Below are positions 845-6,941 of a stretch of DNA of 64,000 nucleotides, piece by piece. Made by a program: the position numbers and the translations under genes. Each line of letters opens with the position of its first letter. Within the stretch, counting starts at the first letter, position 1. Origin of the DNA: Bacteroidia bacterium (GTDB taxonomy: Bacteria; Bacteroidota; Bacteroidia; Chitinophagales; Chitinophagaceae); the NCBI GenBank assembly GCA_030427635.1, contig JAUIBA010000001.1, positions 1 through 64,000 of the forward strand, in the 5' to 3' direction. The notes under the pieces were generated by a model, which searched no databases, was not told the origin of the DNA, and was given only the letters and a program-made list of their open reading frames with translations.

Positions 845-1582
845 TCAGGCAAACTTTTTAGCCAGCCGCTCCAGGTCTTCAGGAGTATCCACACAATGGC
901 TTTCATATTTTGTGGGTACGCATTTTATCCGGTATCCGTTTTCCAGCCAGCGTAGCTGCTCCAGCGACTCTGCTTTTTCCAGTGCCGATACAGGTAGCTG
1001 TGTGAGCGCTCGTAGTATGTCAGTTCTGTACGCATACATGCCCACATGGCGGTAATATGTATGGTGCAGGTGCCATTCTTTTTCATCCACACCCTTTATG
1101 TAGGGAATGGTCATACGGCTGAAGTATAGCGCCTCACTCTGTGTATTGAGTGTAATCTTTACCTCACCCATATCGGCCAGCTCCTCATAGCTGGTCACAG
1201 CTATCATCTGTGTGGCTATTTCGGTAGTGCCGTCATGCAGCACGGCTGCCAGCTCGTTTATCTGCTCCGGGTCTATGAACGGCTCATCGCCCTGTATATT
1301 GATGACATAGGTATAATTTCCGTCCAGCTGTGTTACCGCCTCATAGCATCTGTCTGTCCCGCTGGGGTGGTGTGCGGCTGTCATTACCACGTTACCGCCA
1401 AAGCTGCGCACATGTGCCGCTATCCGCTCATCATCAGTAGCCACAGCTACAGTAGCCAGTGCGGGGCTCTGCATGGCACGTTCATACACGCGCTGTATCA
1501 TGCTTTTGCCGTTTATTTCAGCCAGCGGCTTACCGGGAAACCGGGTAGACGCATATCGTGCGGGTATGATGCCTGCTATCAT
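845..1582 (-). CDS. kdsB: CMP-Kdo synthetase (3-deoxy-manno-octulosonate cytidylyltransferase), probably Kdo8N-preferring
   Basis: KdsB couples CTP with Kdo to make CMP-Kdo, the donor for lipid A inner-core glycosylation, in the cytosol. The 245-residue length is normal. It opens with the family signature IIPARYASTRFPGKPLAEI, followed by ATDDERI and the HPSGTDRC and NIQGDEPFI motifs. The ATG at 1582 overlaps the stop of the upstream HAD gene by 4 bases, showing translational coupling and confirming the start. As it is the last gene of a cluster that also carries kdnA and kdnB, its true substrate may be 8-amino-Kdo, as is known for the Shewanella enzyme of the kdn cluster; that preference is inferred from context, not visible in the residues. 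Confidence 0.95.
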   Translation of the reverse strand: MIAGIIPARYASTRFPGKPLAEINGKSMIQRVYERAMQSPALATVAVATDDERIAAHVRSFGGNVVMTAAHHPSGTDRCYEAVTQLDGNYTYVINIQGDEPFIDPEQINELAAVLHDGTTEIATQMIAVTSYEELADMGEVKITLNTQSEALYFSRMTIPYIKGVDEKEWHLHHTYYRHVGMYAYRTDILRALTQLPVSALEKAESLEQLRWLENGYRIKCVPTKYESHCVDTPEDLERLAKKFA

Positions 1583-2292
1583 CTGGGATTATGTTCTGTT
1601 ATTTTACCGTCTATGGTTGTGTAGAAGGCTGGTCGCGGTATATTCCGGCTGTTCAGGTAGTCGCGGTAGTGTTCTGTATATTCTGCCCGCTGCATGATGG
1701 TGTCCTCATAGCGCCCACTCAGTGCTTTCAGCAGCTCTGTGGCCTCTCTTATGGCATTGCTGCCACCATCATTGGCAGTGATATAGTCTGCCAGCCTGCG
1801 CTCCTGTGCCAGCTTATGCAGCATAGGAGTACCCGCCCGGCCTATCATTATCCGCAGCCCACACATAGAGGCTACCTGAAGGTCTGTTATATCATCAAAA
1901 AAATAGGCTACTTCCGAGGGCTGTATGTCATGAGCCTCGCAAAGGTGCATCAGTGCATCTATTTTGTTTTTGATGCCGTAGTACACCCCATGCAGGTGCT
2001 CCCGCTGTGCAAAGGTGAATGCCACCGGGTTTTTTTCTCCTGTTATAATACCTGCTATAGGATTACTGCCGTGGCGCATATAGTGGTTATACCGCAGCAT
2101 ATTAATGCCCATGGAGTCCACTTCGTTGAATGGGCTGGAGCCATCAGCCCCCTTGGAGCCATTGTTAAATACTCCGTCCCAGTCAAATATATACGCACCG
2201 ATAGCCGGCAGTGTACCGGCTATCGTGTGTGCATCAGTGACAAATGTGCCGCTGAATACACCGGATATTATTGCTGTCTCCTCTGTATTCAT
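1579..2292 (-). CDS. HAD-family phosphatase, probable Kdo-8-phosphate phosphatase (KdsC-like) with C-terminal extension
   Basis: It probably removes phosphate from Kdo-8-phosphate, the step between KdsA and KdnB. HAD motif I is FDWDGVFNN (two Asp separated by one residue), motif II lies in GIITGEK with its Thr, and motif IV is FFDDITDL. At 237 residues it is longer than a typical KdsC (about 170-190): there are about 35 residues before motif I and a C-terminal part of about 50 residues (from GRYEDTIMQRAEY) that I do not recognise. The gene lies between the aldolase-CBS gene (24 bases upstream) and kdsB (4-base overlap). The HAD call is firm; the Kdo-8-P substrate is inferred from position and from the absence of another phosphatase in the cluster. 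Confidence 0.8.
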   Translation of the reverse strand: MNTEETAIISGVFSGTFVTDAHTIAGTLPAIGAYIFDWDGVFNNGSKGADGSSPFNEVDSMGINMLRYNHYMRHGSNPIAGIITGEKNPVAFTFAQREHLHGVYYGIKNKIDALMHLCEAHDIQPSEVAYFFDDITDLQVASMCGLRIMIGRAGTPMLHKLAQERRLADYITANDGGSNAIREATELLKALSGRYEDTIMQRAEYTEHYRDYLNSRNIPRPAFYTTIDGKITEHNPR

Positions 2293-2316: not shown

Positions 2317-3330
2317 TTAGTATCCTTTCAGGTCCTGGATATCCAGCATACCTACCGGCTTATTGTTTTCAGTAGCCATCAGTGTATCCACACTGGTTTT
2401 CTTAAACAGTACAGCCGCATCATTCAGCAGTGCATTTACATCAATGCTGATAGGTGTTTTGAACTCCAGTCCGCCTATTTTCTTATCCAGTATATGCTCT
2501 CCGTCTTTCTGCAGCAGTCTGCGCAGGTCACTGTCTGTGAATACACCTACAGCATCACCGCCATCATTTACTACAGTCACACAGCCAAAGCCGTATTCTG
2601 TCATTTTTACAATAGCATCTTTAATGTTAGTACCCTCATGCACCAGCGGGTTGATGTTGTTCATAGCGTCTTTTACGCGTACGGTCATCAGGCGGGTATC
2701 AGTGAGGAACTGCTCAGTACCCAGTGCAGTGAAGTTATTTTCAGTAAGGGACTTCAGTATTTTCAGCGGTACGGTTATTGTATGCGCTCCGGCAGTGAGG
2801 GCGTTGCGTATGTGCTCTGAGTTACGCACCGAGCTGAACATGATTTTTGTATCATACTTATAGCGCTCCACAGCTTTTACACACTGTTCTACCAGTGCCA
2901 CTGCATCATGACCCTGATCCTGCAGGCGGCCCACCAGCGGACATACATAGGTAGCGCCCGCCTGCATAGCCATATATGCCTGCTGCAGGGTGTATACCAG
3001 ATGCACATTTACCAGTAGTCCTTTGTCGCGCAGCATGCGGCAGGCACGCAGCCCTTCCAGCGATACCGGTATTTTAAAAACGGTTTTTTTCGGGTCCAGT
3101 CCCAGTTCCAGCTGGCGCACGGCTTCAGCCACCACGTCTTCGGCAGTGTTGCCCAGTGCTTCTATCTGTAGTACAGGTACTATTTTAGACAGCTTTACTA
3201 TTGTGCCATCTATATCGGTAATGCCCTCACGCTGCATAAAGGTGGGGGTAGTAGTGAGTCCTGTCAGGAATCCGAGTTTAAAGCCTTCTTCTATCTCTTT
3301 GAGGTTGGCTGAGTCAAGATACAGTTCCAT
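2317..3330 (-). CDS. Transaldolase/fructose-6-phosphate-aldolase-like domain fused to a CBS pair, in the KdsD position of a Kdo8N operon
   Basis: This 337-residue protein has two parts. Residues 1-215 resemble the FSA/TalC small transaldolase fold: MELYLDSANL with Asp6, GLTTTPTF, a Gln in VLQIEA, and the Schiff-base lysine Lys86 in FKIPVSLEGL. Residues about 220-337 are a CBS pair with the signatures GVFTDSDLRR and KPVGMLDIQDL, strongly reminiscent of the CBS pair at the C terminus of KdsD arabinose-5-phosphate isomerases. Relative to E. coli FSA (from memory), Asn28 is Thr, the active-site Thr109 position is His, and Tyr131 is Leu, so the chemistry or specificity has probably shifted. It sits 50 bases after kdsA. 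No SIS-domain KdsD is in the window. It may supply arabinose-5-phosphate, but that is inference; an ordinary transaldolase regulated by nucleotides is the alternative. Confidence 0.85.
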   Translation of the reverse strand: MELYLDSANLKEIEEGFKLGFLTGLTTTPTFMQREGITDIDGTIVKLSKIVPVLQIEALGNTAEDVVAEAVRQLELGLDPKKTVFKIPVSLEGLRACRMLRDKGLLVNVHLVYTLQQAYMAMQAGATYVCPLVGRLQDQGHDAVALVEQCVKAVERYKYDTKIMFSSVRNSEHIRNALTAGAHTITVPLKILKSLTENNFTALGTEQFLTDTRLMTVRVKDAMNNINPLVHEGTNIKDAIVKMTEYGFGCVTVVNDGGDAVGVFTDSDLRRLLQKDGEHILDKKIGGLEFKTPISIDVNALLNDAAVLFKKTSVDTLMATENNKPVGMLDIQDLKGY

Positions 3331-4445: not shown

Positions 4446-5525
4446 TTACATTCTCCTGTATAGCTCCTCTATTGTTTCTATTGTTATCTTCTCCTTCCAG
4501 TCAGGGCCTATGGCATGGTTCCACATGTGGGGCAGGTTATACGCCACATGTGCCATTGCGGTTATCTGCTCATCAGTCCAGCCTGCGGCCAGTCCTGTTG
4601 GCAGTGTCACATTATGGCGGGTCAGCATCTGCTTCAGCTCACGCACTCCCTCACCGTAGTAGTCCTCCAGATGCTGGAATGCCAGGCAGTTGGCATAGCA
4701 ATGTTTTTCTCCCAGTATTTTAGACAGGCCATAAGACAGGGCGTGGCATACACCTACTTCAGAGTAGGTAAGACTCAGGCCACCCATCATACTGGCTACC
4801 ATCAGCTTATCGTCATTTTCTGCATTCTGTCCGGCATTGTCACCCAGGTATATTTCGCGGCACAGTTTCAGTGCCTGCTCGGCATAGGCATGGCTGTAGG
4901 CATTGTTCAGGGTGCCGTTTTCCGACTCTATACAGTGGATATAAGTATCCATACCTGTGTACAGCCATTTATCTGTAGGTACGGTAGCGGTAAGTTCGGC
5001 ATCCAGTATCACCTGATTAAACACGGTCCAGTCGCACTTCAGTCCCAGTTTCTTTTCTGGTCCGGTCAGTACTGCCGTCATAGATACTTCTGCACCCGTG
5101 CCTGATATAGTAGGAATGCCCAGGTGATATATGCCCGGCTTTTTTATCAGGTTCAGTCCCTGGTAAAGGGTAGAAGAGCCCTCATTGGTAAACATTAGTG
5201 ATACTGCCTTGGCTATATCCATAATGCTGCCGCCACCTATGCCTATCACACCGGCCGGTAGCCCGTGGTGCTGTAGTACTTCGTCTCTCAGGTTGTCTAT
5301 CTGGTCGGTGGTAGGCTCATGAGGGTCCACATCTATAAAGCGTACCACGTCTTTGGCCTTAGCCGGCAGGCGGCTTTCCAGCTCCTTGCCTTTGAAAAAG
5401 TTATCCACTACATACAGGAAGAAATTATCGTTCTCGTTACGCTTTCCTTCCAGGATACTTTCCAGCATGGAGAAACTCCCCCTGCCAAAGACCACTTTGT
5501 CTATATTCTTGAAATTCTTGTGCAT
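4446..5525 (-). CDS. kdnB: Iron-type (group III) alcohol dehydrogenase, probable Kdo 8-oxidase KdnB
   Basis: KdnB oxidises the C8 hydroxyl of Kdo to an aldehyde with NAD, the first step in making 8-amino-Kdo. This 359-residue protein has the group III dehydrogenase layout: the NAD-binding GIGGGSIMDIAKA (about 95-107), the loop PTISGTGAEVS, and metal ligands at Asp193 and His197 (MDTYIHCIE), His261 (CHALSYG) and His275 (EKHCYANC). The start is ATG at 5525. It lies 35 bases after an aminotransferase of the kind used by KdnA and upstream of kdsA-kdsB, which reproduces the kdn gene set described in Shewanella oneidensis. The enzyme family is certain; the substrate assignment comes from this neighbourhood. 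Confidence 0.85.
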   Translation of the reverse strand: MHKNFKNIDKVVFGRGSFSMLESILEGKRNENDNFFLYVVDNFFKGKELESRLPAKAKDVVRFIDVDPHEPTTDQIDNLRDEVLQHHGLPAGVIGIGGGSIMDIAKAVSLMFTNEGSSTLYQGLNLIKKPGIYHLGIPTISGTGAEVSMTAVLTGPEKKLGLKCDWTVFNQVILDAELTATVPTDKWLYTGMDTYIHCIESENGTLNNAYSHAYAEQALKLCREIYLGDNAGQNAENDDKLMVASMMGGLSLTYSEVGVCHALSYGLSKILGEKHCYANCLAFQHLEDYYGEGVRELKQMLTRHNVTLPTGLAAGWTDEQITAMAHVAYNLPHMWNHAIGPDWKEKITIETIEELYRRM

Positions 5526-5560: not shown

Positions 5561-6772
5561 TCAGGCTACGGTAGCTGTTGCCATCGCTTTACGCACACAT
5601 GCCGATATTTTCTCAGCAAGCGCTCTTACCTCATCCTCTGTCCATGTGCAGCGTACGCCAAACGATATCAGTCTGCCTATTACCTCCTGGCTTTTTGGCA
5701 GCGCTATGTTTGCATAGTCCTGTGGTAGTCCCAGTACCTGTGCAGGCAGTTTTGATGCAGTGCGCATTTCCTTTATATGGTCCCACTGATTGATGAAGTG
5801 ATACATATTCACATACCAGTAGTTAAATCCTCCTACTCCGGCTGCATTCATTTCTGCTACCACACGTCCTGCAGTTTCTGTGTCAGGCAGTAGTATGTTC
5901 AGGAATGTAGCAGAGTCTCCATCCGGGTCTGCCAGGCGGGCAAAGGATATACCTTCTGTCTGCGATAATATTGAAGTAAGCAGTTGCTTGTTTTTTCTGT
6001 TATCAGCCACTATCTGTGGCACACGGCGGGTCTGTGCTACGCCTACTGCAGCATGCAGTTCACTTATGCGGTAGTTAAAGCCCAGTATGGGGTGCTGCTC
6101 CATACCGCGGTTGCTGCCTATATGGTCATGACCATGGTCAGAGTATGAGTCGGCCAGTTTATATACCGCTTCATCATTCGTTACCAGTACACCACCTTCT
6201 CCGGCAGTTGCAATCTTGAAAAAGTCGAACGAGTAACTGCCCGCCTTACCAAACAGACCTGTATAAGTGCCTTTGTAAGATGCTCCGAATGCCTGTCCTG
6301 CATCCTCCACCAGTACCAGGTTGTGCTCGTTTACTACCTCCATTATGGCATCCATATCAGCCATGCCGCCACACATGTGCACCAGGCACACCCCTTTGGT
6401 ATTGGGGGTAATCGCTTTTCTGATACCCTCTGCACTCAGACACAGGGTTTCATCTATTTCTGCAAATACCGGTTTGGCACCTACAAAGAATACCGCCTCT
6501 ACAGTAGCTATATAGGTAAATGGTGGTACAATTACCTCATCACCTGTACCTATACCTGATGCTGCCAGTGCAGTAGCAATAGCTGTAGAGCCGCTGCTCA
6601 TAGCGTGTGCATACTTTGCATGGGTTATCTTACGCACCTCAGCTTCAAAGTCGCGCGCCTTCCATATACTATTGCGCTGTTGGTCGTGGTTATAGCGGAA
6701 TAATATGCCGGTTTCCAGCACATCATTTATTTCTTTGCGTTCTTCGTTACCGAACAGTTCAGTTCCCGGCAT
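5561..6772 (-). CDS. kdnA: DegT/DnrJ/EryC1/StrS-type PLP aminotransferase, probable 8-amino-Kdo synthase KdnA
   Basis: KdnA aminates 8-oxo-Kdo with glutamate as donor, giving Kdo8N. The 403-residue protein has the sugar-aminotransferase features: the phosphate-binding SSGSTAI (59-65), PPFTYIAT (83-90), VEDAGQAFGA with the PLP-contacting Asp157, and the Schiff-base lysine Lys186 in FDFFKIATAGEGG. A TTG 39 bases further upstream is in frame, but it lies before the predicted promoter, so I take the ATG at 6772. With kdnB only 35 bases downstream the two form a pair. Other members of the family make amino sugars for O-antigens; the neighbouring kdsA, kdsB and group III dehydrogenase point to Kdo8N instead. 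Confidence 0.85.
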   Translation of the reverse strand: MPGTELFGNEERKEINDVLETGILFRYNHDQQRNSIWKARDFEAEVRKITHAKYAHAMSSGSTAIATALAASGIGTGDEVIVPPFTYIATVEAVFFVGAKPVFAEIDETLCLSAEGIRKAITPNTKGVCLVHMCGGMADMDAIMEVVNEHNLVLVEDAGQAFGASYKGTYTGLFGKAGSYSFDFFKIATAGEGGVLVTNDEAVYKLADSYSDHGHDHIGSNRGMEQHPILGFNYRISELHAAVGVAQTRRVPQIVADNRKNKQLLTSILSQTEGISFARLADPDGDSATFLNILLPDTETAGRVVAEMNAAGVGGFNYWYVNMYHFINQWDHIKEMRTASKLPAQVLGLPQDYANIALPKSQEVIGRLISFGVRCTWTEDEVRALAEKISACVRKAMATATVA

Positions 6773-6793
6773 AATACTATAGTTTTTGGTTTG

Positions 6794-6801
6794 CAAAGAT
6801 A
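6794..6801 (-). promoter_or_regulatory. Predicted -7 box of kdnA-kdnB
   Basis: The minus strand reads TATCTTTG here, an exact TAnnTTTG match. Transcription would begin near 6787, about 15 bases before the kdnA ATG, leaving a short leader. No equally clear TTTG box sits at the best distance upstream. This placement excludes the in-frame TTG at 6811 as the start codon. Confidence 0.5.
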
Positions 6802-6941
6802 GTAACGGCAAAGCACAAACTATTGTTATAACTACCCTCTGCAGCTACAAAAAATCATGCCCGATATTGAGGTATGGCATCAGGATATGGTGGGTATCAT
6901 TTTACTACAGGCTTTTGCAGGAATATCAGAGCCGCCCATCA

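Follow-up and report, generated by a model that had tools for sequence, protein, structure and literature searches.

A transaldolase-type barrel joined to a CBS pair as a probable source of arabinose 5-phosphate in Kdo operons of Bacteroidota

Described enzymes and the fusion gene

There are three groups of described proteins with which this gene can be compared. KdsD/KpsF (TIGR00393), the enzyme that supplies D-arabinose 5-phosphate (A5P) to the Kdo pathway, has a SIS catalytic domain and a CBS pair, and CMP-Kdo binds to this CBS pair. Single-domain A5P isomerases exist in Bacteroides, and these too are SIS proteins. The second group is the small transaldolases (TalC) of B. subtilis (3r8r), T. 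maritima (1vpx), and T. acidophilum (3s0c), along with fructose 6-phosphate aldolase (FSA; FsaA, 1l6w), which has no CBS pair. The third is the KdnA (5k8b) and KdnB (5k8c) systems for 8-amino-Kdo, which we take to be of Shewanella origin. Among the papers listed in literature searches, whose scope left out preprints and most subscription papers, none describes an A5P role for a transaldolase-CBS protein.

The window analysed here is a stretch of 64,000 nucleotides from the genome of a Bacteroidia bacterium (Chitinophagaceae). It contains the following gene.

2317..3330, minus strand: TalC-CBS fusion gene, a proposed A5P-forming enzyme; open reading frame of 337 aa, identified through Pfam, NCBIfam, and homologues
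2692..3330, minus strand: transaldolase/FSA-type barrel of the fusion, residues 1-213
2320..2691, minus strand: CBS pair of the fusion, residues 214-337; among solved structures, closest to the CBS pair of 4o9k

A Pfam scan at E 0.001 found TAL_FSA (PF00923) at residues 3-202 (E 3.2e-36) and CBS (E 1.2e-14), and no SIS domain. When the C-terminal 131 residues were scanned separately, two CBS stretches were seen. The protein scores 161 bits with the FSA/TalC model (TIGR00875), below the equivalog cut-off of 245.95. The KdsD/KpsF model aligns with residues 213-329 only, at 57 bits (cut-off 203.7). Thus, the fusion keeps the TalC fold and stands outside standard TalC/FSA by its score and its altered site. 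It shares the C-terminal CBS pair, the pathway slot, and the proposed product with KdsD/KpsF and stands outside that family in having another fold in place of the SIS sugar-isomerase domain. Identity to the three small transaldolases is 33-35% and to FsaA 26%. The fusion differs from TalC in its CBS pair, its link to a Kdo operon, and residues T28, H110, C130, and L132. Tyr131 and Gln59 of FSA correspond to Leu132 and Glu57.

The full-length form recurs in seven of 392 genomes of the phylum at 61-100% identity, so the fusion is not a chance joining. Among the matches listed in that search, all non-fusion ones are at most 38% identical and cover the barrel part, a few extending slightly beyond it by read-through of stop codons. 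With tblastn of genome contigs, 491 stretches were found to encode relatives, and the best 80 of these are 76-89% identical in alignments that run from residue 1 to 334-337. A first-pass annotation had described a TalC/FSA-type barrel joined to a CBS pair, and the Pfam domains and the full-length homologues confirm this. Lys86, Asp6, and the motifs GVFTDSDLRR and KPVGMLDIQDL that it named are all present in the translation. It had also likened the CBS pair to that of KdsD; among solved structures, the closest is indeed 4o9k (E 1.5e-11), from an arabinose 5-phosphate isomerase. The fold search lists barrel matches only, one domain filling the list.

A tree of 66 CBS rows, with 17 of the 87 fusion rows included and L118 (wrong gene) and L121 (a fusion) left out, placed the fusion rows outside the KdsD rows, with the order of the groups unresolved and some very long branches. 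The tree neither favors nor disfavors an origin of the fusion's CBS pair from that of KdsD. Feedback control is the probable function of the CBS pair. The KdsD-type CBS domains of 4o9k and 3k2v presumably bind CMP-Kdo, and this suggests CMP-Kdo as the feedback signal for the fusion.

The Kdo operon and its KdsA

The fusion gene lies in an operon with the order kdnA-kdnB-kdsA-[fusion]-kdsC-kdsB.

845..1582, minus strand: kdsB, CMP-Kdo synthetase; TIGR00466, 221 bits, cut-off 155
1579..2292, minus strand: kdsC*, a divergent kdsC-like HAD phosphatase gene, the sole TIGR01670 match found in the genome
3381..4217, minus strand: kdsA of subtype KdsA* (KDNRS motif, M119, H138, R202, Y204, C247); TIGR01362, 322 bits, cut-off 314
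4446..5525, minus strand: kdnB, Kdo 8-oxidase of the 8-amino-Kdo branch; 424 bits to 5k8c over residues 3-359
5561..6811, minus strand: kdnA, 8-amino-Kdo transaminase; 441 bits to 5k8b in an alignment that begins at residue 14

The solved match of KdnB, 5k8c, is a 3-deoxy-alpha-D-manno-octulosonate 8-oxidase. The listed kdnA frame begins at a TTG, and the true start is probably the ATG with its first base at 6772. KdsC* is 237 aa long, is extended at both the N- and the C-terminus, and scores far under the KdsC cut-offs. The kdsA gene is located 50 bases upstream of the fusion on the same strand; the first-pass annotation had placed the fusion directly after kdsA. Its reading of the operon was right about this neighbor and overlooked kdnA, kdnB, and the subtype of KdsA.

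The same neighbors are seen elsewhere. Among the best 80 of the 491 loci, same-strand kdsC-like genes were identified in 61, kdsB in 55, kdsA in 48, kdnB in 43, and kdnA in 42. The contig ends within many of these loci, and some divergent kdsC genes may have escaped the search. In one genome (G190) the fusion does not adjoin kdsA. About 500-800 extra bases are present directly before the fusion gene, in the gap that follows kdsA, in 18 of the 48 loci where kdsA is within range (L049, L051, L052, L054-L057, L060, L063-L066, L073, L079, L086, L094, L098, and L101). Six of these inserts were read by eye and three were scanned. The scans returned a PIN domain and DUF6364 (L055), a HicA-like protein (L094), and a 23S rRNA intervening-sequence protein (L060), and the inserts of L049, L057, and L064 resemble that of L055 by eye. 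It seems that differing toxin-antitoxin-like modules enter one spot between kdsA and the fusion. The L060 contig, which bears this Bacteroidota-like operon, is titled Azovibrio restrictus, by name presumably a betaproteobacterium. That bin is probably mislabelled or mixed.

Relatives of KdnA and KdnB are present in the operon, and a role for the fusion in 8-amino-Kdo synthesis as such was considered. It was rejected, as KdnB is about equally common without the fusion. At E 1e-90, KdnB was not found in 4 of the 15 fusion genomes of a family draw and was found in 83 of the 132 fusion-negative ones. The fusion is thus not tied to the Kdo8N enzymes. KdnB is common in the family (94/147 at E 1e-90) and occurs in two forms, which are 78-100% identical to the KdnB of the window in fusion genomes and 45-54% identical in the others.

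The KdsA encoded in the operon is of a distinct subtype. Seven positions differ between KdsA* and canonical KdsA in the sampled rows (52/52 vs. 32/32), and three more nearly so. The canonical rows are those near a fetched KdsD and 14 picked by hand; the L121 row, from fusion genome G366, was excluded, which gives 32. The changes include KANRS to KDNRS, Arg119 to Met, and Lys138 (present in 31 of the 32 canonical rows) to His, and they extend to the loop that follows the metal-binding His. The residues that we take to be the metal ligands are retained by reading of the alignments. The changed positions (the Ala of KANRS, the Arg, and the metal-His loop) are presumably near the A5P phosphate and raise the question of whether KdsA* still takes A5P; its acceptor could be another compound.

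The fusion travels with KdsA* in the sampled rows. When 30 KdsA proteins were typed, 14 were KdsA*, with 13 in fusion genomes and one in G249, and 16 were canonical. G249 is a single contig of 7.03 Mb that carries kdnA-kdnB-kdsA*-kdsC*-kdsB, with 91 bases separating kdsA* and kdsC* at the place where the fusion would be expected. A search of G249 found no fusion, the best match being 34% identical over the barrel only. A KdsD match is present at E 3.0e-95 (profile score only), and KdsA* is the sole KdsA. G501 possesses both sets, canonical KdsA with KdsD, and KdsA* beside the fusion. KdsD and the fusion can thus work with one and the same KdsA*, the simplest account being that both make A5P. 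From the single case of G249, the two look interchangeable.

Distribution of the fusion and KdsD

The source genome has a completeness of 99.47%. A SIS-domain KdsD elsewhere in it would have spoken against the first-pass annotation, and none was found by profile and SIS-domain searches of the whole genome. The KdsD profile matched CBS parts only. The SIS matches were two within one frame of 627 aa, read by eye as GlmS, one in a phosphoglucose/phosphomannose isomerase that exceeds its curated threshold, and one in a GmhA-like protein, which reaches 207 bits with a cut-off of 209 and has a GmhB-like gene next to it. A SIS-only isomerase filling the A5P step was therefore rejected, since another function is likely for each of these proteins (GlmS by eye).

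In the phylum draw of 392 genomes, the threshold was E 1e-60 for KdsA and E 1e-40 for KdsD; handles were copied by hand from the search lists, and the totals of 282 and 338 match the tallies. KdsA is present in 282 genomes. All seven fusion genomes have KdsA and none has KdsD. KdsD is present in 271 of the remaining 275 KdsA genomes, although in five of these the match, with E values of 1e-44 to 1e-48, lies under the curated cut-off. Among the 110 genomes that lack KdsA, the fusion is seen in none and KdsD in four. Among 14 control genomes, four have KdsA, and the same four have KdsD at E 1e-40. The seven fusion genomes belong to four families, where they make up 4/15, 1/8, 1/3, and 1/26 of the sampled members; KdsD is present in 11, 7, 2, and 24 members, respectively. 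The fusion as a mark of one lineage was rejected, since all four families also hold KdsD genomes.

In the family draw of 147 genomes, 13 have the fusion only, 129 have KdsD only, two have both (G501 and G537), and three have neither. The fusion and KdsD thus largely exclude each other in the family. Fisher tests gave p of 1.3e-11 for the phylum draw and 4e-14 for the family draw, with relatedness ignored. For this reason, the repeated swaps within genera carry more weight: in each of three genera (g5, g188, and g253), one sampled species has the fusion only and another has KdsD only.

A wider set of 50 fusion-carrying handles was made up of 43 of the 80 loci, mostly chosen for long contigs, and the seven genomes; among the handles, G091 and G421 denote a single genome. 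In 47 of the 50, no KdsD match exceeded the cut-off, and what the KdsD profile picked up of SIS parts there was limited to weak, partial alignments at E 2.9e-5 or worse. The fusion and KdsD occur together in four distinct genomes (G428, G422, G501, and G537, which is also G419). Three of the four have KdsA* only, so KdsD and the fusion are not divided there between two KdsA types. It is possible that these genomes arose from mixed bins. Absence of KdsD is not invariably accompanied by the fusion: six genomes, four from the phylum draw (G023, G200, G268, and G284) and two from the family draw (G504 and G550), have canonical KdsA and neither a strong KdsD nor the fusion. Assembly gaps or yet another A5P source could account for them.

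Active site and proposed role

The active-site positions were set by alignment with the transaldolase of T. acidophilum. Some of the 87 fusion rows are nearly identical to one another (L009 and L094 share a genome), and the 24 single-domain TalC rows are the best-scoring search matches and the genome's own TalC, not a random sample.

3073..3075, minus strand: Lys86 codon, Schiff-base lysine position; K in 87/87 fusion and 24/24 single-domain TalC rows
3247..3249, minus strand: Thr28 codon (Asn in TalC); T 87/87 vs. N 24/24
3001..3003, minus strand: His110 codon (Thr in TalC); H 87/87 vs. T 24/24
2941..2943, minus strand: Cys130 codon (Ser in TalC); C 87/87 vs. S 24/24
2935..2937, minus strand: Leu132 codon (Phe in TalC, Tyr131 in FSA); L 87/87 vs. 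F 24/24

Asp6, Glu57, Lys86, Asn108, Arg135, Ser167, and Arg169 are invariant in all 87 fusion and all 24 TalC rows. By sequence, the Schiff-base lysine and the catalytic Asp of TalC/FSA are thus in place, and the TalC substrate-site residues N28, T110, S130, and F132 (Tyr131 of FSA) are replaced. The first-pass annotation had named three altered positions by their FSA numbers. All three are real (T28, H110, and L132 in the protein's own numbering), and it did not name the fourth, S130C. The fusion keeps the residues that align with the transaldolase phosphate site. Two Arg and one Ser are reported to bind the acceptor phosphate in transaldolase/FSA (PMC3962226).

The corresponding residues have been probed in related enzymes, as can be seen from the titles of PDB entries for variants: E60Q/F132Y of the T. 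acidophilum enzyme, Q59E and Y131F of FSA, and N35A, T156A, S176A, E96A, and D17A of TalB, where the correspondence of the TalB positions to the fusion is our assumption. Another title (3upb) describes a transaldolase in covalent complex with A5P. A5P is fructose 6-phosphate minus C1. The altered Ser and Asn presumably bind the dihydroxyacetone part, and their change fits an aldose bound at C1.

It is probable that the fusion is the source of A5P that replaces KdsD in the Kdo pathway; this applies to the role and not to the chemistry. The absence of KdsD in nearly all fusion genomes, the position in the operon, the co-travel with KdsA*, and G249 all point to this role. The catalytic lysine, the acid/base residues, and the phosphate-site residues are kept along with four invariant substrate-site changes, which also argues for it. 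The first-pass annotation had suggested a new source of A5P. The absence of KdsD and the mutual exclusion make this the best reading, and the chemistry that it proposed stays among the candidates. The fusion would form A5P in place of KdsD, and KdsA*, KdsC*, KdsB, and, where present, KdnB/KdnA would convert it to CMP-Kdo or 8-amino-Kdo.

The tentatively preferred chemistry starts from a pentose 5-phosphate: proton transfer at C1/C2 would turn ribulose- or ribose-5-phosphate into A5P. A5P may occupy the place of fructose 6-phosphate in transaldolase, with its C1 at Lys86. A simple Schiff base at C2 of ribulose-5-phosphate would give no A5P, so the lysine is placed at C1 or made an electrophile. 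Glu57 and the new His110 could serve as acid/base, Lys86 as imine former or electrophile, and the CBS pair may supply feedback. This preference comes from the swap of the fusion and KdsD in several genera without a visible linked gene for a two-carbon donor, and from the clustering of the changes at the C1/C2 end, where a His is added beside Glu57 and Lys86. A possible outcome, put forward with some reserve, is that a protein of the transaldolase fold makes A5P directly from ribose- or ribulose-5-phosphate through a lysine-bound or lysine-polarised intermediate and a new His/Glu acid-base pair. An aldolase scaffold bearing a KdsD-like feedback sensor would then have become a sugar isomerase or epimerase and replaced KdsD without homology to its catalytic domain.

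Other readings can be weighed against these. In an aldol reaction, an enamine of glycolaldehyde on Lys86 would add to glyceraldehyde-3-phosphate to give A5P. This would leave the role the same and is part of the probability given to it. E. coli FSA is reported to make A5P from glycolaldehyde and glyceraldehyde-3-phosphate and was used for this in an engineered strain (PMC6298115, PMC9947464). The 3S,4R stereochemistry of FSA/TalB (PMC3962226) matches D-arabinose by derivation, and the position described in the same paper as tuning the donor site (A129 of FSA, S176 of TalB) is altered to C130. Lys86, Asp6, Glu57, and Asn108 are all retained. The equivalent of Asp6 in transaldolase serves C-C cleavage (PMC7092467), and with Asp6 kept in 87/87 rows, aldol chemistry fits better than plain isomerisation. 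However, no gene for glycolaldehyde supply was seen among the operon genes, Tyr131 of FSA is Leu in the fusion, and the exchange with KdsD within genera suggests a substrate common to every cell. An aldol route therefore appears somewhat unlikely, if a serious contender.

It is also conceivable, and rather improbable, that KdsA* takes a sugar phosphate other than A5P, made by the fusion, and yields a modified octulosonate. This would account for the switched positions of KdsA* (seven in 52/52 vs. 32/32 rows, and nearly so three more) and for a KdsC* far under the KdsC cut-offs. G249, however, has KdsA* with KdsD and without the fusion, KdsA* is slightly over the KDO8P synthase cut-off (322 vs. 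314 bits), and the KdnB of the operon matches Kdo 8-oxidase over its full length. The fold and the catalytic lysine are those of TalC, and an ordinary transaldolase or fructose 6-phosphate aldolase with a CBS regulator could be in the operon by accident while another enzyme makes A5P. This is very improbable: the genome's second TalC passes the cut-off at 267 bits, with the fusion at 161 against 246, the four substrate-site residues are altered in 87/87 rows, and the exclusion with KdsD would be left unexplained. The CBS pair and the four altered residues could likewise suggest a protein with a regulatory or scaffolding function. In that case nothing would take the place of the missing KdsD, and the seven active-site residues listed above (Lys86, Asp6, Glu57, Asn108, Arg135, Ser167, and Arg169) would hardly be expected to stay invariant in 87/87 rows; there is very little to recommend a non-catalytic protein.

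If the fusion is the source of A5P, a missing step of Kdo synthesis would be filled in a group of Bacteroidota. There would be a second, non-homologous route to A5P, with an aldolase barrel in the place of an isomerase, together with a similar sensor domain. Genomes without kdsD would then not necessarily be without Kdo.
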